Assembly (NCBI GenBank): GCA_029582155.1
Contig: CM055898.1
Span: forward strand, 24,372,839-24,436,838
Source of the DNA: Panopea generosa
Lineage: Eukaryota; Mollusca; Bivalvia; Adapedonta; Hiatellidae
Direction of reading: 5' to 3'
DNA: 64,000 nt
Part shown: piece after piece, positions 4,720-63,864 of the stretch
How the letters are laid out: each line of letters begins with the position of its first letter
How positions within the stretch are numbered: position 1 is the stretch's first letter
Position numbers and translations under genes: made by a program
Notes under the pieces: generated by a model
Database searches by the model: none
Seen by the model: the letters and a program-made list of their open reading frames with translations, nothing else
What the model was told of the DNA's origin: nothing

Positions 4720-4922
4720 ATTATAACACAACCATTGCAGAGGTGTATTTGTTCAAGCCGCGGCAATCAGATCTTACCTCCAAATTCAAACGCTTTTTCT
4801 GCAAAACTTGTTGAGATGTTTGTCTTTAAGAAAAGCAAGTGTTGCTGATGATCAAGACTAGTTAAATTGACTATGGATAGCTGGCACTATTTTTCATTGG
4901 TTGACAGCAGTCACATGTACTT

Positions 4923-5200
4923 TTTAGCTCGCCGGGATGAAGTCCACGGAGAGCTTTTGCCATAACCCTGGCATCGTTGTCGTCTGTGGACATCCAAGTT
5001 AAACTTTTGCATTTTAGTTTAAGATATCTATGCAACCACTCATTGGATGTGAATGAAACTTTGCATGTGTGTTCACCATCATCAATGGAACACATATAGA
5101 CAAGAACCATAACTCTGGATTGCATTTTGACACTGTTATGGCCCATTTTTGACTAAGACACCCAGGGGAAAGCTTTGTTGTCTTCTGCCAACACTTGTTT
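4923..5200 (+). mobile_element. Short HINE-like element, AGCTCGC family
   Basis: The left end is TTTAGCTCGCCGGGATGAAG. The right end has an AGCTT remnant and an imperfect stem GTTGTC-TTCT-GCCAAC, then ACTTGTTT. The interior matches the copy at 36749-37036 closely (GAATGAAACTTTGCATG, CACCATCATCAATGGA). Two minus-strand open frames inside (4871-5205) are by-products of the repeat. Confidence 0.65.
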
Positions 5201-16640: not shown

Positions 16641-18209
16641 CTTCAAATATTGCTTGTTGCGATAATATAACTTGTAATGTGTTGAATTTTTTTATTGCCC
16701 CCCTCAGATATTCAAACCAATGTAAAGCCACATTTAGTGTTACCTCTTACAGTCTGTCTTTCTGTGCAACCATCTGTCCCTCAAATTCGTTTCCAATGAA
16801 TATTTTCTGAAAGAGTCTATATATCTAATTGATATTTTGGTGTGTGGCTAAATTATTATGAAATACAGGTCATGTCTAATATTTCAGTACTAATTACTGA
16901 ATCAATGTTTGAAAGTAGACAATGAAATTATAGTGATAATCCAGTGTTATACAAATGACCGCAGGGTTTATCACTTAAAATCAATATGGCACATGTTCAA
17001 TAAGTTCTTCAGCACTTTGAAAGAATTGAGTAATGTCAATGATGCGACTGATGATATTGTTGTATATTAGGTTAATACAACTATACTCTAATGAGAAACA
17101 GAAATCTATTGATTTAGTAAAATAAAGAGAGAGGAGGTGACTGTGTTGGGATGTAATATGCTGTCTCTATTATTGATAAATTTATCATTTTAACTACATA
17201 GAAACCAAATCACAGCAGCCACAACCATTACCCTGCCTTGTGATATTGTAACGAGTAATCTGAGTGTTAATTAGATAATAGCTAAGACCATTATTAGACA
17301 CATTGTGCAATAGTGTACAGCTGATTAAACACAAAAAATGGAGAAAAAGAAAATCGAGGAAATATAATTGGAAAAAATAAATGTCCGAATGATGTAAATT
17401 TAAAGATGTTCACATCTTGTTGATAGGAAAAAAATGTTAATAATTAATATAAATTTCAAGAATATTGTTTATTTAATTTGAAATTTTCATGTTTCATTAT
17501 TTGAACAGAAGCAGAAAAGGTTTTAAAGAGTTAGTTACATTTTAACAAATTGAAAGAAAAAACAAAGGACAATTAATAAAGGACATCATAGAGATTTACA
17601 AGATTCTTCTGCTGCATCTAAGTTTTGACAGATATTGTGGTAGAGATGGTACTTTGATGAGTTATTGATAAGACAAAGTTGCAGTAGTGGTAAACTTGTA
17701 CAGTTGTGACTTTCTTTAACAGTTGGATTACATTTCAAGGGAATTATATCCTAAAATGAACATTTTCAAAAACAAAAAGAAATCTGCAAATGGTGAAATA
17801 GGATATCACGAAGGACGGTTAATTTGTGAAGAGTTGTCTCCCCTGTGTTGACTTCGCTGCCTGCAAATTTATGTTTCAGTGAGATGGGCGAGGAATGTAA
17901 TTGTTGGTCCTGGATCTGCCAGATGTAAATATAGAATTATTACTTTTTGTTACTGTTTAATGTTGCCACATTACATAAAACATAGAATTGTTGTGTTTAA
18001 GTTATTTAAGTTATTCAATTATGAAATTTGATCTTCCTACAGTAACATTGCCAAGTTACATCATAGCAAAAATATCACACCTCTATCAGTTAAACTAATG
18101 TTTATGTTGCTTAGTGGTAATTTATCTATAAAATAATCACTTTGAACATTAATGTTGCCATCAAGCGATAACCACGGTAACATTTGTTATATTTGAGTGA
18201 TATCACAAT
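16641..18209. other. No gene seen
   Basis: AT-rich non-coding sequence without long frames. Confidence 0.4.
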
Positions 18210-19320
18210 TTCAGTTATTTTATTTTCATTCTCAAGTGTTATCACAATTACAATTATTATGTTCCCAATTCTCAAGTGATATCACAGTTACAGTTATTAT
18301 ATTCCCAATTCTCAAGTGATATCACAGTTACAGTATTATATTCCCAATTTTCAAGTGATATCACAGTTACAGTTATTATATTCCCAATTTTCAAGTGATA
18401 TCACAGTTACAATTATTAAATTCCCAATTTTTAAGTGATATCACAGTTACAGTTATTTATTCCCAATTCTCAAGTGATATCACAGTTACAGTTATTATAT
18501 TCCCAATTTTAAGTGATATCACAGTTACAGTTATTATATTCCCAATTCTGAAGTGATATCACAGTTACAGTTATTATATTTCCAATTCTCAAGTGATATC
18601 ACAGTTACAATTATTATATTTCCAATTCTCAAGTGATATCACAGTTACAATTATTATATTCCCCACTTTCAAGTGATATCACAGTTACAGTTATTATATT
18701 CCCAATTCTCAAGTGATATCACAGTTACAAATATTATATTCCCAATTCTCAAGTGATATCACAGTAACAATTATTATATTCCCAATTCTCAAGTGATATC
18801 ACTGTTACAATTATTATATTCTTAATTCTCAAGTGATATCACAGTTACAATTATTATATTTCCAATTCTCAAGTGATATCACAGTTACAATTATTATATT
18901 TCCAATTCTCAAGTGATATCACAGTTACAATTATTATATTCCCGATTTTCAAGTGATATCACAGTTACAGTTATAATATTCCCAATTCTCAAGTGATATC
19001 ACAGTTACAATTATTATATTCCCAATTCTCAAGTACTATCACAGTAACAATTATTATATTCCCAATTCTCAAGTGATATCACTGTTACAATTATTATATT
19101 CTTAATTCTCAAGTGATATCACAGTTACAATTATTATATTCCCAATTCTCAAGTGATATCACAGTTACAATTATTATATTCCCAATTCTCAAGTGATATC
19201 ACAGTTACAATTATTACATTCTTAATTCTCAAGTGATATCACAATTACAACTATTATATTCTCAATTTTCAAGTGATATCACAATTGCAATTATTGTTTT
19301 CCCAATTCTTTAAGTGTTAT
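18210..19320 (+). repeat. 40-bp minisatellite built on a perfect palindrome, about 28 copies
   Basis: The unit is TTCCCAATTCTCAAGTGATA continued by TCACAGTTACAATTATTATA. Each unit contains GTGATATCAC, a perfect 10-bp palindrome, so about 28 palindromes lie 40 bp apart. Spacing is very regular from 18540 onward. Earlier units have 1-2 bp losses. Confidence 0.95.
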
Positions 19321-19399
19321 CACAATTATAATCACATGGTCATGATTGAAATCTTAATATTAATATCCATTATGTTAAAAAAGTACATTTGTTTCATTT

Positions 19400-25409: not shown

Positions 25410-28400
25410 AAAGGGGAAGATATATCCAAGAGTTATAGTGAGGGGGGATATATATCAAGGATTTATAGTGAGGGTGGGATATATGCAGGATTTATAGTGA
25501 GGGGGGATATATCAAGGATTTATAGTGAAGGTGGGATATATGCAGGATTTATAGTGTGGGGGGATATATCAAAGATTTATAGTGAGGGTGTTATATATCC
25601 AGGATTTATAGTGAGGGGGGATATATCAAGGATTTATAGTGAGGGGGGATATATCAAGGATATATAGTGGGGGGTGGGAGTATATCCAGGAGTCATAGTG
25701 AGTGGTAGATATATCAAAGATTTATAGTGGGGGGATATACCAAGGATTTATAATGAGGGGAATATATCAAGGATTTATAGTGAGGGGGGATATATACAGG
25801 AGTTATAGTGAGGGGGGGGGGGGGGGGGGGGGGGAATATATCCAAGGTTTAAAGTGAGGGGGGATATTGCCAATATTTAAAGTGAGGGGGAGATATATCC
25901 AGGATTTATAATGAGGTGGAGATATATCAAAGATTTATAGTGAGGAGGAGATATATCAAAGATTTATAGCAAGTTGAGATATATCCAAGACATAAAGTGA
26001 GGGGGAGATATATCAAAGATTTATAGTGAGGGGGATATATATCCAGGACTTATAGTGAGAGGGAGATATATCAAAGATTTATAGCGAGATGGAGATATAT
26101 CCAAGACTTATAGTGAGGGGGAGAAATATCAAAGATTTATAGTGAGGGGGGGGGGGGGGGGGGGGGGGATATATCAAAGATTTATAGTGGGGGAAATATA
26201 TATCCAAGATTTATAGTGAGGGAGATATATATCCATGATTTATAGTGAGGGAGATATATATCTAGGATTTATAGTGAGAGGAGTTATATCCAGGATTTAT
26301 AGTGAGGGAGAGAGATATATCTAAGATTTATAGTGAGGTAGAGATATATCCAGGATTTATAATGAAGGGGAGATATAGCAAGGATTTATAGTGAGGAGAG
26401 ATATATCCATGATTTATAGTGAGTGTGAGATATATTCAGGATTTATAGTGAGGGGGAGATATATCCAGGATTTATAGTGAGGGGAAGATATATCCAAGAT
26501 TAAAAGTCTGGGAGATATATCCAATATTTATAGTGAGGGGGAGATATATCCAGGATTTATAATGAGGGAGAGATTTATCCAGGATTTATAGTGAGGGGGA
26601 GGTTTATCCAAGACTTACAGTGAGGTGGAGATATATTAAAGATTTATAGTGAGGGGGTGATATATATACAGGATTTATAGTGAGGGGGGGGGGGGGGGAG
26701 ATATATCAAAGATTTATAGTGAGGGAAATATATATATCCAGGATTTATAGTGAGGGGGAGATATATCCAAGATTTATAGTGAGGGGGAATATATCCAGGA
26801 TTTATAATGAGGGGAAGATATATCCAAGACTTATAGTGAGAGGGCGATATATATACAGGAATTATAGTGAGGTAGAGATATATCCCGGATTTATAATGAA
26901 GGGGGAGATATAGCCAGGATTTATAGTGAGGAAAGATATACCCAGAATTTATAGTGAGGGGGAGATATATCAAAGGTTTATAGTGAGGGAGATATATATC
27001 CAGGATTTATACCGGGGGTGGGGGGGAGATATACCCAACATTTATAGTGAGGGGGAGATATATTCAGGATTTATAGTGAGTGGGAGATATATACCAGGAT
27101 TTATAGTAAGGGGGGGTGGTAGATATATCAAAGATTTATAGTGAGGGAGAGATATAGCCAGGATTTATAATGAAGGGGAGATATATCCAAGATTTATAGT
27201 TTGGGGGATATATCAAAGATTTAAAATGAGGGAGAGATATAGCCAGGATTTAAAATGAAGGGGAGATATATCCAAGATTTGTAGTGAGGGGGAGATATAT
27301 CCAGGATTTATAGTGAGGGGGGAGATATATCCAAGATTTATAATGAGGGGGGATATATCCAGGATTTATAGCGAGGGGGGATATATCCAAGATTTAAAGT
27401 CGGGGAGATATATCCAATATTTATAGTGAGGGGGAGATATATCCAGGATTTATAATGAGGGAGAGATTTATCCAGGATTTAAAGTGAGGGGGGTATATCC
27501 AGGATTTATAGTGAGGGGGAGGTTTATCCAAGACTTACAGTGAGGGGAGATATATCCAAGACTTACAGTGAGGGGGAGATATATCAAAGATTTATAGTGA
27601 GGGTGAGATACATCCAGGATTTATAGTGAGGGGGAAATATATCCAGGATTTATAGTGAGTGGGGGAGATATATCCAAGATTTATAGTGAGGGGGAGATAT
27701 ATCCAGGATTAATAATGAAGGGGAGATATATCCAGGATTTAAAGTGAGGGGGGTATATCCAGGATTTATAGTGAGGGGGAGGTTTATCCAAGACTTACAG
27801 TGAGGGGAGATATATCCAAGACTTACAGTGAGGGGGAGATATATCAAAGATTTATAGTGAGGGTGAGATACATCCAGGATTTATAGTGAGGGGGAAATAT
27901 ATCCAGGATTTATAGTGAGTGGGGGAGATATATCCAAGATTTATAGTGAGGGGGAGATATATCCAGGATTAATAATGAAGGGGAGATATATCCAAGATTT
28001 ATAGTGAGGGGGAGATATATCCAGGATTTATAGTGAGGGTGGGGGGAGATATATCCAAGATTTATAGTTAGGGGGAGATATATCCAGGATTTATAATGAG
28101 GGGGAGATATATCAAAGACTTATAGTGAGGGGGTGATATATATACAGGATTTATAGTGAGGTAGAGATATATCCATGATTTATAATGAAGGGGAGATATA
28201 TCCAAGATTTATAGTGAGGGGGAGATATATCAAGGATTTATAGTGAGGGTGGGGGGAGATATATCCAAGATTTATAGTTAGTGGAGATACATCCAGGATT
28301 TATAGTGAGGAGGAGATATATTCAGGATTTATAGCGAGGGGGAGATATATCCAGGATTTATAGTGAGGGTGGGGGGAGATATATCCAAGATTTATAGTTA

Positions 28401-28890
28401 GGGGGAGATACATCCAGGATTTATAGTGAGGAGGAGATATATTCAGGATTTATAGCGAGGGGGAGATATATCCAGGATTTATAGTGACGGGGAGATATAT
28501 CAAAGATTTATAATGAAAATATCCAAGGTTTATAGTGATGGGAGATATATTCAGGATTTATAGTGACGGGGAGATATATCAAAGATTTATAATGAGGGGA
28601 AAATATCCAAGGTTTATAGTGATGGGAGATATATTCAGGATTTATAGTGAGGGGGATATATATTCAGTTTTTTTAGTGAGGGGAGATATATCAATGATTA
28701 ATAGTGAGGGGAAGATATATCCAAGGTTTAAAGTGAGGGGGAGATATATATAACTAAGATTTATAGTGAGGGGAGATATATCCAGGATTTATAGTTAGGG
28801 GGAGATATATCCAGGATTTATAGTGAGGGGGAGATATATTCAAGATTTATAGTGAGGGGGAGGTATATCCAGGATTTTTAGTGAGGGGTA
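25410..28890 (+). repeat. ~29-bp G-rich minisatellite, 3.5 kb, about 120 copies
   Basis: The core is ATATATCCAGGATTTATAGT followed by GAGGGGGAG. G-run length and CCAGG/CAAAG/CCAAG variants differ from unit to unit. Pure G tracts occur at 25812-25834 (23 G), 26146-26168 (23 G) and 26684-26698 (15 G). Larger blocks are themselves duplicated: 27481-27740 and 27741-28000 are nearly identical (shift 260 bp), 28271-28390 repeats with a 120 bp shift, and a block near 28515 repeats after about 86 bp. Confidence 0.97.
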
Positions 28891-30289
28891 GAGGTCTCCA
28901 TTGAAGATTATATCGATTTCTGACAAAGTTTCCAAAAATTTAGGGTGGTGATGGTGGGAATTCAAGTTTATTATGTTCTTTATTATTTTTACAGAAATAT
29001 AGATATATTCTTTAATATTCAGAAAATTTCATGGGCTTGTCTATTTTTTTGCATTCGGCCATCTTTAAACAATACATTGTTTGCCATGCTCCTACCTACT
29101 CTCTTAAAATTGCAGCTACCCAAACTTTTTTTATTAATTTTCAAAGCATTTAATTATTTTTATTCATGATTTCTGTCCATTTTCCTTTAAAATGACTATG
29201 CAAAATCAAAATTTGGCAGAAAAAAATACCTACCTACCTACCCACATGAAAAATACTGAGTCAGAGCACAGCAAACAAATATCTTTTTAAGGATGACCTT
29301 AGAATTCCCAAATAGATTTAGTTAAGATTAAATATCATAAAACATTTGCATTTAAAGGCATTATTTCTATTTACAATAAATTCCATTACAATATGTAATG
29401 TGAATCACAAAATTCTGGGTAACATTCAGTTTGCTTAAATGTTTAACTTGTTTGCAAATGTTTGATAACACTAGTCAACTGAACGACATGTTCGCTTTAA
29501 ATGTTTGCTAACAAAGCAAATACCTCTGAGAGCTGTTTGCTTGTGTTTATTACATGACTTAAAGGTAAATGGAGGGACTGTGACAATGTAGTCCAATTTT
29601 CATTTACTTTTTGTTTGTTTAGTCACCGTTTGCATTTATAACCAGAGTAAACATGTTCAAATGTACTGCACACAGCTCAAATCATTAGACCCAGGATCAT
29701 GGGTTCATATTTTTGCACTATACACCAGCAATGGAGACCCAGATTAGACTACAAATATCCTTAAATAGTCAGCATCTACATGTTTGGCTCTCATTCAGTA
29801 TTAACAATCACTCCTCATTCATGATGCTGTAATGACCCGCACCCATGGTTGGTCCAGCGTCAATTACAAAAACTTGACAAGTTGTAAGCACTCTCTGTGC
29901 TCAGCTGAAAGTACAATGCTTGTATAACTACTGCCTACAAGACCATATGGTACAGCTCAGTGAAAACTAATTTTGCTGAAACCATGCAAACGACAAATTG
30001 GATTATCCAGCTCTCTAATAACAGAAAGTTTGTATGATGATAGGAAATTGCTCTGTCAAAACGTACTCACCAGTACAATGATGTAGTTTGATTAAAATTT
30101 CCATTTACAGTTGGGAATCGTAGCTTCAAATTCCTGTTTTTATCTTATCTCAATTCTCAAGTCGTAGATTAAAAGATACAATATATTCATACATCTCAAA
30201 CAGTGATTGTGCTTTATTTTAAATTTAGTAAAAACAAAAATAAAAGAATGGTAACTGTAAATTGAATTGTTTTTTAGCTCTTGTTACTG
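28891..30289. other. No gene seen
   Basis: AT-rich sequence. There is a short TACC run at 29228-29241, and a weak B-box-like CATGGGTTCATATT near 29700 hints at a decayed SINE. No coding evidence. Confidence 0.4.
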
Positions 30290-36748: not shown

Positions 36749-37036
36749 TTTAGCTCGCTGGATGAAGTCCAAGAAGAGCTATTGCTTTGACCCCGGTGTT
36801 GACATCGGCATCGTCGTTGTCTGTAGGCACCCAGATTAAACTTTTGCATTTAAGTTTAAGATATCTATGCAACCACTTATTGGATGTGAATGAAACTTCG
36901 CATGAGTGTTCACCATCATCAATGGATCACACACAGACAAGAACCATAACTCTGAATTGCATTTTAACACAGTTATGGCCCTTTTTGGACTTGGACACCC
37001 AAGGGCAAGCTTTGTTGACTTCTGACAACTCTTGTT
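36749..37036 (+). mobile_element. Short HINE-like element, AGCTCGC family
   Basis: It starts TTTAGCTCGCTGGATGAAG and ends with a stem GTTGAC-TTCT-GACAAC and TCTTGTTT. The interior is close to 4923-5200 (ATATCTATGCAACCACTTAT). Open frames in both directions are by-products. Confidence 0.7.
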
Positions 37037-39830: not shown

Positions 39831-39834
39831 GATT

Positions 39835-42030
39835 CATGTATGAACACACTATTCCTCTTTCCAATTTCATGTATGAACACATTATTTCACTTTCCAATTT
39901 CATGTATGAACACATTATTTCACTTTCCAATTTCATGAATGAACACATTCATTATCCACTTTCCTATTTCATGAATGAACACATCATTCGCTTTCTCATT
40001 TCATGTATCAACACATTATCCACTTTCCCATTTCATGTATGAACACATTATTCCAATTTCATGTATGAACATATTATTCGCTTTCTCATTTCATGTATCA
40101 ACACATTGTCCATTTTCCCATTTCGTGTGTGAACACATTATTCCACTTTCCAATTTCATATATCAACACATTATTCTTTTCTTTTTTTTATTTCATGTAT
40201 CAACAAACTATTCCACTTTCCAATTTTATGTATAAACACAATATTCACTTTCCCATTTTATGTATAAACACATTATTCCACTTTCCCATTTCATGTATGA
40301 ACACATTATTCCACTTTCCAATATCTTGCATGGACACATTATTCCACTTTCCCATTTCATGTATCAACACATTATTCCCTTTCCCATTTCATGAATCAAC
40401 ACATTCACTTTCCCATTTCATGTATGAACACACTATTCACTTTCCCATTTCATGTATGAACACATTATTCACTTTCCCATTTCATGTATGAACACATTAT
40501 TCCACTTTCTCATTTCTTGCATGGACACATTATTACACTTTCTCAATTCATGTATCAACACATTATTCCTTTTCCCATCATATATCAACACATTATTCAC
40601 TTTCCAATTTCATGTATGAACACACTATTCACTTTCCCATTTAATGTATGAACACATTATTTACTTCCCAATTTCATGTATGAACACACTATTCACTTTC
40701 CCATTTCACATATGAACACATTAATCCAGTTTCCCATTCCATGAATGAACACACTATTCACTTTCCCATTTCATGTTTGAACACATTAATCCAGTTTCCC
40801 ATTTCATGTTAGAACACATTATTCACTTTCCCATTTCGTGTATGAACATATTATTATTTTCTTTTTTTATTTCATGTATCAACACACTATCCACATTCCA
40901 ATTTTATGTATGAACACATTATTCACTTTCCAATTTCATGTATGAACACATTTTTCACTTTCCAATTTCATGTATGAACACATTATTCACTTTCCCACTT
41001 CATGTATAAACACACTATTTCACTGTCCATTTCATGTACCAACACATTATTCCACTTTCCAATTTCATGTATGAACACATTATTCACTTTCCAATTTCAT
41101 GTATGAACACACTATTCATCTTTCCCACTTCATGTATCAATTCACTATTCCACTTTCCCATTTCACGTATCAACACACTATCCACTTTCCCATTTTATGT
41201 ATCAACACACTTTACCACTTTCCAATTTCATGTATGAACACATTATTCACTTTCAAATTTCATGTATGAACACATTAATCCAGTTTCCCATTCCATGTAT
41301 GAACACATTATTCACTTTCACACTCCATGTATGAACACTTTATCCCACTCTCATTTCATGTATGAACACATTATTCCACTTTCCCATTTCTTGTATGGAC
41401 ACATTATTCCACTTTCCCATTTTATGTTTCAACACATTATTCACTTTCCCATTTCATGTATTAACACATTATTCACTTTCCCATTCCATGTATGAACACA
41501 CTATTCACATTCCCATTTCATGTATGAATACATTATTCACTTTCCCATTTCATGTATGAACACACTATTCACTTTCCCATTTCATAAATGAACACATTAA
41601 TCCAGTTTCCCATTCCATGTATGAACACACTATTCACATTCCCATATCATGTATGAACACATTAATCGAGTTTCCTGTTTCATATAAGAACACATCATTC
41701 ACTTTCCCAATTCATGTATGAAAACATTGTTCTTTTCTTTTGTATTCCATGTACCAACACAGTATCCACTTTCCAATTTCATGTATGGACACATTATTCC
41801 ACTTTCCCATTTCATGTATGGACACATTATTCCACTTTCCCATTTCATGTTTCAACACATTATTCACTTATCCATTTCATGTATCAACACATTATTCACT
41901 TTCCCACTTCATATATCAACACACCAATCCACTTTCCTATTTCATGTTTCAACACACTATTCCACTTTCCTGTTTCATGTATCAACACACATATTCCACT
42001 TATACATTCCATACAGTTACACATTATTTC
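39835..42030 (+). repeat. 32-bp minisatellite, 2.2 kb, about 68 copies
   Basis: The core is TTTCATGTATGAACACATTA plus TTCACTTTCCCA. Variants include GTATCAAC, GTATGGAC and CCACTTTCCAA. The plus strand is C/T/A-rich with very few G. It ends about 280 bp before the exon at 42312. Frames of up to 235 codons (41740-42447) pass through it and partly into the exon, but only the exon part is credible coding. Confidence 0.96.
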
Positions 42031-42311
42031 AGTTTTTCATTTTTAGATATAACCAAGCATTATTCCACATTTCCATTTCGTGGAACACATTTCACTATTT
42101 TGTTACTTACATTTTATTCAGCGATGCCGTTTCATCGAACAAAATTAATTATTTCACTTAAATTACAATTCATCAGAACTTGTAATTCAAAGAATTATAT
42201 GGTTTTAATTCACTGTGACATGGAACACTTCATTGGAATTTGCCATTTTATGTTCTTTATGTTATACTTTACTGTTCTATGTTTTTTAATGGCTGATTTT
42301 TCTATTTTTAG

Positions 42312-42441
42312 ATTTGAGAGGCCAGACAGACGTGTCGTCACGGAACACGTACAACCACAGACCACATCAACAACAGCACTCAATGATGCCCTCACGTCGC
42401 GGGGGCGCGATCCATCATATCAGTCCACAGCTGCTCATAAG
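42312..42441 (+). CDS. syt7: Probable synaptotagmin-7-type linker exon
   Basis: A pyrimidine-rich tract ending in TTTTTCTATTTTTAG precedes it, and AAG|GTATAG follows it, both good GT-AG sites. The exon is 130 nt. After one leading base, one frame is open for 43 codons and rich in Ser, Thr, Gln and Arg, starting FERPDRRVVTEHVQ and ending PSYQSTAAHK. That frame ends in phase 0, and the C2A exon at 62977 starts in phase 0 in the right frame, so the two join without a shift. Composition rises clearly in GC over the flanks. The function would be part of the linker between the membrane anchor and C2A, a region known to be alternatively spliced in vertebrate Syt7. I do not recognise the peptide itself. 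A second frame (starting LRGQTDVSSRN) is also open but would not join in phase. Confidence 0.6.
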
Positions 42442-42444
42442 GTA

Positions 42445-42578
42445 TAGTTGTGTCTGTGATATGTTTGTTTGTGATAGTACACATATGTGTGATGTTTGTT
42501 TGTGACATCTGTAATGTGATGTTTGTTTGTGATATCTGTATGTGTGATGTTTGTTTGCGACATCTGTAATGTGATGTT

Positions 42579-42671
<93 letters not shown>

Positions 42672-42743
42672 TGTTTGTTTGTGACATCTGTATGTGTGAG
42701 ATTTGTTTGTGACATCTGTAATGTGATGTTTGTTTGTGATATA

Positions 42744-42836
<93 letters not shown>

Positions 42837-44420
42837 TGCTTGTTTGTGACATCTGTATGTGTGAGATTTGTTTGTGATATCTGTGTGTGTGATGTTTGTT
42901 TGTAACATCTGTATGTGTGATGTTTATTTGAGATATCTGTATGTCTTATATTTGTTTGTGAAATATGTATGTGTGATGTTTGTTTGTGATATCTGTATGT
43001 GTGATATTTGTTTGTGAAATATGTATGTGTGATATTTGTTTGTGATATCTGTATGTGTGATGTTTGTTTGTGAAATATGTATGTGTGATGTTTGTTTGTG
43101 ATATCTGTTTGGTGATGTTTATTTGTGGCATCTATGTGTAATGTTTGTTTGTGATATATGTATGTGGGATGTTTGATTGTGACATCTGTATGTGTGATGT
43201 TTGTCTGTGATATTTGTATGTGTGATGTTTATGAATCTGTATGTGTGATGTTTGTTTGTGACATCTGTATATGTGATGTTTGTTTGAGATATCTGTATGT
43301 GTGATGTTTGTTTGTGACATCTATATGTGTGATATTTGATTGTGATATCTGTATGTGTGATATTTGTTTGTGATATATAAATGTGTATTGTTTGTTTGCG
43401 ATATTTGTATGTGTGATGTTTGTCTGTGATATTTGTATGTGTGATGTTTGTGACATCTGTATGTGTGAAGTTTGTTTGTGATATATGTATGTGTGATGTT
43501 TGTCTGTGATATTTGTATGTGTGATGTTTGTGACATCTGTATGTGTGAAGTTTGTTTGTGATGTATGTATGTGTGATGTTTGTTTGTGATATCTGTATGT
43601 GTGATATTTGTTTGTGATATATAAATGTGTATTGTTTGTTTGCGATATTTGTATGTGTATTGTTTGTTTGCGTTATTTGTATGTGTGATGTTTGTTTGTG
43701 ATATCTGTATGTTTGATGTTTGTTTGTGACATCTGTATGTGTGTGTGATGTTTGTTTGTGACGTCTTTATGTGTGATATTTGTTTGTGATATATGTATGT
43801 GTGAGGTTTGTTTGTGACATCTGTATGTGTGATATTTGTTTGTGATATATGTTTGTGTGATATTTGTTTGTGATATATGTATGTGTGATATTTGTTTGTG
43901 ATATATGTATGTGTGAGGTTTGTTTGTGACATCTGTATGTGTAATATTTGTTTGTGATATATGTATGTGTGATGTTTGTTTGTGATATATGTGTGTGTGA
44001 TATTTGTTTGTGATATATGTGTGTGTGATATTTGTTTGTGATATATGTATGTGTGATATTTGTTTGTGATATCTGTATGTGTGATGTTTGTTTGTGATAT
44101 ATGTATGTGTGATATTTGTTTGTGATATATGTGTGTGTGATATTTGTTTGTGATATATGTATGTGTGATATTTGTTTGTGATATATGTATGTGTGAGGTT
44201 TGTTTGTGACATCTGTATGTGTGATATTTGTTTGTGATATATGTATGTGTGATATTTGTTTGTGATATCTGTATGTGTGATGTTTGTTTGTGATATCTGT
44301 ATGTGTGATATTGGTTTGTGATATATATATATGTGTATTGTTTGTTTGCGATATTTGTATGTGTGATGTTTGTTTGTGATATCTGTATGTGTGATGTTTG
44401 TAATATGTGTTTGACGTTTA
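42445..44420 (+). repeat. ~28-bp UG-rich minisatellite with two pure (TG)n runs
   Basis: The core is GTGATGTTTGTTTGTGATAT plus CTGTATGT, about 65-70 copies, starting a few bases after the splice donor at 42442. Pure TG runs occupy 42583-42670 (88 bp) and 42746-42835 (90 bp). The minus-strand His/Thr-rich open frames are repeat by-products. Confidence 0.96.
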
Positions 44421-46345: not shown

Positions 46346-46353
46346 GATTATAG

Positions 46354-47680
46354 TGTTTATGACATTAGAGTAATGTGTATTTGTGGTGTTGATGACATTC
46401 GAGTGACATGTGTTTATGACATTTGAGTGATGTGTTATTGTGGTCTTTATGACATTAGAGTAATGTGTGTTTGTGGTGTTGATGACATTAGAGAAATGTG
46501 TGTTTATGACATTTGAGTGATTGTGGTATTTATGACATTAGAGTAATGTGTGTTTGTGGTGTTGATGACATTAGAGTAATGTGTGTTTGTGGTGTTGATG
46601 ACATTAGAGTAATGTGTGTTTGTGGTGTTGATGACATTAGAGTGATGTGTGTTTGTGGTGTTGATGACATTAGAGTAATGTGTGTTTGTGGTGTTGATGA
46701 CATTAGAGTAATGTGTGTTTGTGGTGTTGATGACATTAGAGTGATGTGTGTTTGTGGTGTTGATGACATTAGAGTAATGTGTGTTTGTGGTGTTGATGAC
46801 ATTAGAGTGATGTGTGTTTGTGGTGTTGATGACATTAGAGTGATGTGTGTTTGTGGTGTTGATGACATTAGAGTAATGTGTGTTTGGGGTGTTGATGACA
46901 TTAGAGTAATGTGTGTTTGTTGTGTTGATGACATTACAGTAATGTGTATTTGTAGTGTTTATGACATTAGAGTAATGTGTGTTTGTGGTATTGCTGACAT
47001 AAGAGTAATGTGTGTTTGTGGTATTGATGACATTAGAGTAATGTGTGTTTGTGGTGTTGATGACATTAGAGTAATGTGTGTTTGTGGTGTTGATGACATT
47101 AGAGTAATGTGTGTTTGTGTTGTTGATGACATTAGAGTAATGTGTGTTTGTGGTGTTTATGACATTAGAGTAATGTGTATTTGTAGTGTTTATGACATTA
47201 GAGTAATGTGTGTTTGTAGTGTTTATGACATTAGAGTAATGTGTATTTATAGTGTTGATGACATTAGAGCGATGTGTGTTTATGACATTAGAGTGATGTG
47301 TGTTTATGCATTTGAGTGATGTGTGATTGTGGTGTTTATGACATTAGAGTAATATGTGTTTGTGGTGTTGATGACATTAGAGAAATGTGTGTTTGTGGTA
47401 TTGATGACATTAGAGTGATGTGTGTTTATGACATTAGAGTGATGTCTGTTTATGGCATTTGAGTGATGTCTGTTTATGGCATTTGAGTGATGTGTGATTG
47501 TGGTGTTTATGACATTTGAGTGATGTGTATTTGTGGTGTTGATGACATTAGAGTGATGTGTGTTTATGACATTTGAGTGATGTGTGATTGTGGTGTTTAT
47601 GACATTTGAGTGATGTGTATTTGTGGTGTTGATGACATTAGAGTGATGTGTGGTCATGACATTTGAGTGATGTGTGGGCT
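46354..47680 (+). repeat. 33-bp minisatellite, about 40 copies
   Basis: The core is GATGACATTAGAGTAATGTG plus TGTTTGTGGTGTT. One separated unit lies left of the hAT-like element (about 44545-44589). The 11-codon period yields a 268-codon frame (46513-47319) and minus-strand frames, none credible as genes. Confidence 0.96.
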
Positions 47681-48350
47681 TGTGTGGGTAGGGTCTTGTG
47701 TATGAGTATGGCATGTTTGTTTAGACTTGTTAACATTATGGGTATGACATGGTCCTGTTGGTGTATAACATAGTTGTGTGGGTAGGATCTTGTGTATGAG
47801 TATGGCATGTTTGTTTAGACTTGTTAACATTATGGGTATGACATAATCCTGTTGTTGTATAACGTAGTTGTGTGGTCTTGTGTATGAGTGTGGCATGTTT
47901 GTTTAGACTTGTTAACATTATGGGTATAACATGGTCCTGTTGGTGTATAACATAGTTGTGTGGGCACGATCTTGTGTATGAGTATGGCATGTTTGTTAAG
48001 CCTTGTTAACTTTATGGGTATGACATGGTCCTGTTGGTGAATAACATAGTTGTGTTGTCTTGTGTGGGTAGGATCTTGTGTATGAGTATGGCATGTTCAT
48101 TTAGACTTGTTACATTATGGGTATGACATGGTCGTGTTTGTGTATAACATAGTTGTGTGAGCTTGTGTGGGTAGGGTCTTGTGTATGAGTATGGCATGTT
48201 TGTTTAGACTTGTTAAAATTATGGGTATGACATGGTCCTGTTGGTGTATAACATAGATGTGTGGGATTGTGTGGGTAGGGTCTTATGTATGGGTATGACA
48301 TGGTCCTGTTGGTGTATAACATAGTTGTGTGGACTTGTGTATGGATACTG
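47681..48350 (+). repeat. ~90-105 bp tandem repeat, about 7 copies
   Basis: TGTATGAGTATGGCATGTTT recurs at about 47700, 47792, 47881, 47975, 48079 and 48182, with ATGGGTATGACATGGTCCTG and GGTGTATAACATAGTTGTG between. It directly abuts the 33-bp array. Confidence 0.92.
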
Positions 48351-61885: not shown

Positions 61886-61921
61886 ATAAGATTTAAGCAA
61901 ACTCAACTGTACATTAACATT

Positions 61922-62121
61922 TTTAGCTTGCTGGGATGAATGTCCAGGAGAGTTATTGCCATGACCCCGGCGTTGTCGTTGGCGTCATCTGTATACACCC
62001 AGGTTAATCTTTTGCGTTTAATTGCATTTAAGTTTTGGTGTTTGCCTCCAGTCTAAATCTTTGCATGGGTGGTGAGTTTTATCACATAGGTGAGCTTCGT
62101 TGTCCTCTGACAACTCTTGTA
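61922..62121 (+). mobile_element. Short HINE-like element, AGCTCGC family
   Basis: It starts TTTAGCTTGCTGGGATGAA. Its right end is GGTGAGCTTC, a perfect stem GTTGTC-CTCT-GACAAC and TCTTGT. The interior ATTTAAGTTTTGGTGTTTGC matches 37194-37334. Confidence 0.7.
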
Positions 62122-62976: not shown

Positions 62977-63352
62977 CCATTGGAAACCTCAAACTCACAA
63001 AAATCAAATAGCGAAAATGGAGACACGGACAGTTTGTGGAAAGGGGTACGAAACTTTGCGACAATGTTCATGGAGGAAGGACTGGACGAGGATACCGCGG
63101 TGGCACCACTTCCTGTCGACGGGATAGATTATAACCTTGGAAAAATCCAACTTGCGCTTAGTTACGATTTTCAGACATTGACTTTAACATTAAAGGTTTT
63201 ACAAGCTATGCAACTACCAGCTAAAGATTTCACAGGAACTAGTGACCCATATGTAAAGATTTTACTTTTACCAGATAAAAGACACAAACTTTTGACTAAA
63301 GTGAAAAAGAAAAATTTAAATCCAAGATGGAATGAGTGTTTTCTTTTTGAAG
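62977..63352 (+). CDS. syt7: Synaptotagmin C2A exon, Syt7-like
   Basis: The exon has acceptor CTCTCTTTTTCAG and donor GAAG|GTAAGT. It encodes 125 codons plus one base in phase 0 at the left and phase 1 at the right. Residues 1-50 are an acidic, Ser/Asn-rich linker with a [11 protein letters not shown] stretch. C2A begins at about residue 53 with [13 protein letters not shown]. Loop 1 has [15 protein letters not shown] with both expected calcium-binding Asp (residues 84 and 90). The strand [20 protein letters not shown] and PRWNE follow, and the exon stops within FLFEG. The LPAKDF, KHKL and KNLNP..WNE motifs favour Syt7 over Syt1/2. Synaptotagmins are membrane-anchored calcium sensors for vesicle fusion; Syt7 acts in slow and asynchronous release and lysosome exocytosis. 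Loop 3 and C2B must lie beyond the window. An alternative acceptor at 62954 gives an early stop. Confidence 0.92.
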
Positions 63353-63864
63353 GTAAGTTGCATAATTTATGTTGTAACATTATGAGGTGTTGTGTTTGTT
63401 GTTTTTTAATAGGGAGGGAAGGGGTCTTTAAAAACCTCATATAGGGTCGCAAATTTCAAAATTACAGTATACTTAACCCTATTCCAATGCTCTCAAACGT
63501 TTTATCATTAAAATTCGCCTGACAAACCAAGTAACACGAGTGACTAGTGTTCAAATTTAACTTACTGTTTAGCCAAATGATGCATATCAGCAAATAATGC
63601 GCTATAAAAGTAGATTCTGGTAAAAACCAAACTCGATCATCAAACTGTATTTAATATATTTTTAACTTTTACAGATAAGAAGTAATTTAAATCGACAAAC
63701 ATTTTTTAAACTCCTGTTTACACTGTTTTCAATGACGTTGTAATAAATGGCGTAGTAATACATAGAACGCAAAAACATGATGAATTTACTGATGGTATAT
63801 GCAGTTTTTAATACCTGCAAATCTAAGAGCATCAACCAATGAAATCGTAGGAAATTTATGAAGG
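63353..63864 (+). other. Intron following the C2A exon
   Basis: It begins GTAAGT and stays AT-rich. Frames that run from the exon into it (to 63444) are intron read-through. No next exon is seen before the window ends. Confidence 0.7.

Follow-up and report, generated by a model that had tools for sequence, protein, structure and literature searches.

Among the closest described counterparts of the locus analysed here are human variable number tandem repeats (VNTRs) in introns. VNTR6-1 in intron 6 of TERT has a 38-bp unit present in 24-66.5 copies, and its deletion is reported to shift the balance between isoforms that contain exons 7-8 and isoforms that lack them (PMC11830802), while the length of the intron 18 VNTR of ABCA7 has been correlated with exon 19 skipping and lower expression (PMC6660495). 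Here we describe a linker exon of a synaptotagmin-7 (Syt7) gene of the bivalve Panopea generosa, placed between two large minisatellites in a 64,000-nucleotide stretch of contig CM055898.1 (the window; C5:24372839-24436838 of a 1.474-Gb, 39-contig assembly). In common with VNTR6-1, the locus has a long intronic minisatellite near an exon whose skipping shifts the frame. VNTR6-1 differs in lying ~3.5 kb upstream of the exon, in forming G-quadruplexes and in that its polymorphism and effect on splicing are demonstrated (PMC11830802), whereas the Syt7 array is UG-rich, starts 9 bases downstream of the exon and is read from sequence alone. The ABCA7 array likewise adjoins its exon, but in another gene, with another unit and with an association shown for that gene.

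The GU-rich element of CELF proteins (GRE/EDEN11) is best known as an element of 3' untranslated regions and mRNA decay. Its exact 11-mer, UGUUUGUUUGU, as given in PMC3737555, occurs 21 times at the Syt7 locus, where in contrast it is intronic and supplies candidate binding sites by motif identity. Exons repressed by TDP-43, both cryptic and skiptic, also have UG motifs near the 5' splice site (PMC11163724); the motifs of skiptic exons are short and the response is to TDP-43 overexpression, whereas the Syt7 locus has runs of 44-45 UG units in a 2-kb array. Finally, the alternative linker exons of vertebrate SYT7 belong to the same family and to the same region, between the transmembrane (TM) segment and C2A. 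These exons are described by Craxton 2010 (PMC2823689) as vertebrate additions relative to invertebrate Syt7, unlike the P. generosa exon, which is phase-asymmetric and probably constitutive.

Based on the layout of the locus, the reading frame and comparisons with the surrounding sequence, we consider it probable that this is a constitutive Syt7 linker exon beside locally born arrays that are tolerated by splicing, in a minisatellite-rich genome. Both flanks are minisatellites with head-to-tail units in the 10-60 bp range, 32 bp x 66.8 copies upstream (2,169 bp) and 28 bp x 65.6 copies downstream (Table 1). For the latter, Tandem Repeats Finder (TRF) gave two rows, 42461-42664 (26 bp, 7.5 copies) and 42583-44401 (28 bp, 65.6 copies), which were merged as one array, and local alignment to the 28-bp unit extends its start to 42451, past only 9 intron bases. 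A preliminary description had placed the UG-rich array within a few bases of the donor, as is now seen, and a pyrimidine-rich 32-bp array about 280 bp upstream. The latter array stands, but the gap from its TRF edge to the exon is 310 bp and is probably not a spacer in the ordinary sense: it appears to consist mostly of decayed 32-bp copies reaching 42282, as 42005-42282 aligns to the unit with a score of 120 (maximum of 72 in 200 dinucleotide shuffles and of 46 in 103 control segments from the window). The exon-proximal half, 42100-42311, is weaker, with a score of 54 that is reached by 1/200 shuffles. The observed layout thus holds and is tighter than first described. The repeat edges respect the splice sites, and the non-array intron bordering the exon is limited to 29 nt on the acceptor side and 9 nt on the donor side, approximately the length of the splice sites themselves.

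Table 1. Features of the Syt7 linker exon and its surroundings (positions within the window).
Feature	Position	Strand	Basis
Upstream minisatellite (32-bp unit), rich in pyrimidines and with very few AG in transcript sense	39833..42001	+	TRF
Putative decayed copies continuing the 32-bp array, ending 29 bp short of the exon	42002..42282	+	alignment to 32-bp unit
Polypyrimidine tract and 3' splice site TTTTTAG, non-repeat	42283..42311	+	read from sequence
Predicted Syt7 linker exon, FERPDRRVVTEHVQPQTTSTTALNDALTSRGRDPSYQSTAAHK	42312..42441	+	130 nt, phase 2-0, single genome match, coding score, in-frame chain
5' splice site GTATAG plus 3 nt, intron before the downstream array	42442..42450	+	alignment, donor score, U1 pairing
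Downstream UG-rich minisatellite, 28-bp unit, (TG)44 and (TG)45 runs, 21 UGUUUGUUUGU	42451..44401	+	TRF, unit alignment, motif counts
Next predicted Syt7 exon, starting in phase 0: linker end plus the first half of C2A	62977..63352	+	frame join, Syt7 score, domain match

The exon call appears good. The exon is bordered by AG/ATTTGA and CATAAG/GTATAG (slashes mark the exon edges), and a genome search finds it once in the assembly. It starts in phase 2 and ends in phase 0, and of its two open frames the sole one that runs in frame into the exon at 62977 is FERPDRR...AAHK. With a codon table of 856 codons from C2 exons of the same genome, this frame has a coding score of 10.7, compared to 3.9 and -14.7 for the remaining frames. 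The score is not unique, being reached in 141/10,818 open 43-codon windows. The exon ranks 8th for coding score among separate sites, and the other high-scoring ones are Syt7 exons plus frames that we take for repeats. No AG intervenes between those at 42191 and 42310, the latter being the acceptor, and the U1 pairing of the donor (-6.8 kcal/mol) is equalled by none of the 430 GTs in the downstream array.

The gene itself is most readily assigned to synaptotagmin-7, as its C2A and C2B are nearest to Syt7 among the synaptotagmins. The exon at 62977, with GTAAGT as donor at 63353, scores 109.9 bits to the Syt7 C2A and 76.0 to that of Syt1. Together with three further downstream exons (C5:24462264-24462433, 24471325-24471439 and 24488464-24488768), the five joined exons give an uninterrupted frame of 364 residues that ends in ...QVAQWHLLKD and a stop, and the joined C2AB reaches 393.2 bits to Syt7 (6ank) against 286.0 to Syt1 and 230.5 to Syt3 (solved structures). 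In the 182 kb upstream, a search for the TM exon returned five weak hydrophobic candidates with one filter and none with a stricter filter that required a phase-2 donor, so that the upstream coding exon of Syt7 was not found there with the filters used. In Drosophila, the Syt7 linker is encoded by exons 2 and 3 (PMC7224696), and Syt7 forms devoid of a TM domain have been reported (PMC2823689). A search with the C2A exon in contig collections of prokaryotes and viruses gave 31 and 6 pattern matches, respectively, none of which was confirmed; given the make-up of those collections, this says little.

The origin of the arrays is likely to be local. All 41 genome matches listed for the 32-bp unit (<=3 mismatches) fall at the upstream array and all 45 listed for the 28-bp unit at the downstream one, as local expansion predicts; a dispersed satellite family was therefore rejected, although only the top candidates were scored and more diverged relatives would escape such a search. 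Two unrelated minisatellites would then have arisen, one per flanking intron, both growing up to the protected splice-site footprints, where the upstream one subsequently decayed. They would persist through compatibility with splicing, presumably under selection, because the upstream array is pyrimidine-rich and nearly AG-free and the downstream array offers no 5' splice site that matches the U1 pairing of the real donor. Base composition also differs between the flanks, with G at 5.9% and C at 25.9% upstream, and G at 28.9% and C at 3.2% downstream, such that the GC skew reverses across the exon. Transcripts of the UG array are very probably bound by proteins that recognise UG, such as TDP-43 or CELF, but we think that the array is a modest modulator of splicing at most. 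Exact internal repeats reach 51 bp in the upstream array and 91 bp in the downstream one; the latter is essentially the (TG)n run, and nothing is drawn from it. Richness of the upstream array in YCAY, a Nova-type motif, was rejected, as its 151 occurrences fall below the shuffle mean of 168.

How unusual the layout is was assessed in 264 kb around the locus, where 50 arrays of at least 400 bp were surveyed, 31 of them 1 kb or longer. The share of tandem arrays in this region is 35.9% (35% in the window), and large arrays beside exons are therefore expected somewhere in the genome. When 130-nt non-array segments were placed at random in the region (150,916 placements), 0.04% of them had arrays of at least 1 kb as close on both sides, and 1.33% had an array of at least 400 bp no more than 310 bp away on each side. 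Hence, the layout would be uncommon per exon, while many such exons would be expected in a genome of this kind. Among the papers listed from an open-licence library, the titles and abstract beginnings showed no exon bordered by a minisatellite at each of its splice sites. If the arrays are inert, the locus cleanly illustrates minisatellite expansion up to the limit that splicing tolerates, and exon-abutting arrays should then be AG-free upstream and lack strong donors downstream genome-wide.

Several observations weigh against constitutive inclusion with merely tolerated arrays. The splice sites of the exon are weaker than those of the next one, a trait shared by many regulated exons: scored with a generic matrix, its donor is in the top 8.1% of GTs and its acceptor in the top 3.5% of AGs in the window, compared to 0.07% and 0.15% for the donor and acceptor of the exon at 62977. 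The matrix score of the real donor is reached by four of the array GTs, three GAG/GTTTGT and one GAT/GTATGT, and CAG/GTTTGT is apparently used as donor by the same gene at C2B-1. In the downstream array, counts of UGUGUG and UGUUUGUUUGU surpass those of shuffled sequence. Furthermore, among 11 exons examined, namely five Syt7 exons (three with approximate edges) and six C2 matches elsewhere, for which distances run from the domain match rather than from exon edges, the linker exon is the only one for which arrays of at least 400 bp lie no more than 310 bp away. Of eight C2 loci, L004 (score equal to that of L003) and L008 (the last Syt7 exon) were left out of this baseline; none of the remaining six has such an array, and L006 has a 30-bp tandem stretch ~176 bp away. 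In splicing-relevant features, chosen after the locus was seen, the flanking arrays are also extremes of the 50: the upstream one has the highest pyrimidine share (65%) and the second lowest AG density (3.7 per kb), and the downstream one alone carries UGUUUGUUUGU and has the highest density of UGUGUG and UGU. This is more coincidence than pure neutrality suggests. GTATGT hexamers number 46 in the downstream array (shuffle mean 24.9). The idea that the array supplies a host of decoy donors is weak and was rejected as improbable, as only 4 of its 430 GTs reach the matrix score of the real donor and none its U1 pairing.

The alternative that survives best, which we regard as possible but rather unlikely, is that the UG array tunes Syt7 dosage. 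TDP-43/CELF-type proteins recruited beside a weak donor would alter recognition of the exon, copy number would set the amount of Syt7, and skipping would shift the frame and remove either the transcript or the C2 domains. On the transcript strand, a long UG tract and UGUUUGUUUGU both occur close to the 5' splice site, which makes the array a putative TDP-43/CELF target, in agreement with the preliminary description. The interval 42442-44420 contains two (TG)n runs, one of 44 and the other of 45 units, and the array that holds them starts past only 9 intron bases, beside the weak donor. In the same interval, UGUUUGUUUG occurs 27 times (mean of 50 shuffles 0.5), the CELF element 21 times (0.4) and UGUGUG 143 times (mean 87.5, maximum 111). 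These motifs thus exceed shuffles, but not UGUGU, whose count of 151 is not above that of dinucleotide shuffles (mean 164), and UGUGU abundance as a sign of selection was rejected on this ground. TDP-43 is encoded in the genome, as a TDP-43_N domain exceeds its curated cut-off at three loci (G000:C17:26349275, C7:43354822 and C7:62948306). A single TDP-43 gene would be expected, and the three loci outnumber it. RRM domains in general gave 109 matches in the genome, among which CELF itself was not identified.

Published work bears on this alternative from both sides. Exons repressed on TDP-43 overexpression show a slight enrichment of UG motifs close to the 5' splice site (PMC11163724), exon skipping has been tied to TERT VNTR6-1 deletion (PMC11830802) and ABCA7 VNTR length (PMC6660495), and the action of Drosophila SYT7 is dosage-dependent according to the title of PMC7224696. 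However, intronic CELF1 binding is reported to have no consistent direction of effect (PMC4448682), and UGUUUGUUUGU appears to be a sub-optimal CELF1 site, bound through only two of its three UGU sites (PMC3737555). The repeat units, moreover, are found at this locus alone among the matches listed. A further UG-rich sense-strand array at 46353-48302 lies in the same intron, with 121.5 UGU per kb, second of the 50 arrays; this suggests a G+T-rich seed in the region and not selection for binding sites. That array length sets exon inclusion, as had been suggested, is possible in view of human precedents in kind (TERT, ABCA7). We are doubtful of the more specific notion of an expandable dosage dial, in which a locus-private UG array by a weak donor would load TDP-43/CELF-type proteins in proportion to copy number. 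We likewise give little credence to the joint claim that, with a frame-breaking skip, the length of the array would set functional Syt7 and short-term synaptic plasticity, with the AG-poor upstream array as counterweight. Functional arrays would make the locus an invertebrate analogue of the intronic VNTRs in TERT and ABCA7, the likely output being the amount of Syt7 and not the length of its linker; in either case it may be added as a new candidate to the known class of intronic VNTRs beside exons.

An in-frame change of linker length by alternative inclusion of the exon, as in vertebrate Syt7 alpha/beta/gamma, is very unlikely. Such linker splicing is real in vertebrates (PMC12636619, PMC10947677), and the preliminary description had drawn on it, but this part of its interpretation does not hold, leaving that interpretation partly supported. 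With 130 nt and phase 2-0, skipping shifts the frame: omission of the exon puts 62977 out of frame, and the predicted product stops after 49 codons, before C2A, destroying the protein. In-frame linker isoforms by skipping of this exon alone are accordingly excluded on the predicted frame. A second, frame-restoring alternative exon would be required, and none was found, as was the case for the upstream coding exon in the 182 kb searched; in addition, invertebrate Syt7 is described without extra linker exons in the account of PMC2823689.

That the segment is no exon at all, with the true linker exon at another place in the intron, is highly improbable in our view. Its 43-residue peptide has no Pfam match, its splice sites are moderate and its coding score is equalled by the open windows mentioned above. 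Against this stand the GT-AG ends and the in-frame exon chain, a best coding score in the sole frame that fits the next exon, and a GC content reached by only 2/31,291 non-array 120-nt windows (step 5, 264-kb region). Pairing of the arrays across the exon, which would loop it out and favour skipping or a circular RNA, is barely credible and was rejected. Base composition would in principle permit it, the UG array being poor in C and the upstream one poor in G, but the duplex energy in 12 piece pairs is weaker than that of shuffles (mean -42.2 vs -49.3 kcal/mol; rank 19 of 55 array pairs), with no complementarity beyond them.

Some further observations concern the surroundings. The fold stability of the arrays flanking the exon is unremarkable (z -1.5 and -2.2), while for the arrays at 18196-19332 and 25412-28892 the + strand fold of the first 300 nt is much more stable than in 20 dinucleotide shuffles (z -7.0 and -8.1). 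The open frames 4874-5152 and 36753-36926 (minus strand) share a related peptide, SIDDGEH.C.VSFTSN.WLHRYLKLKCKSL, and 61906-62052 (minus strand) is related in part, through a TDD/LHP-type stretch; the three are probably a dispersed repeat family rather than genes. Elsewhere in the genome, C2 or RRM matches of identical score occur as pairs far apart, at G000:C2:7997862 / 8697841, C13:58059276 / 68649598 and C12:45920873 / 69312744, the C13 and C12 pairs on opposite strands, and represent either segmental duplications or assembly duplicates.

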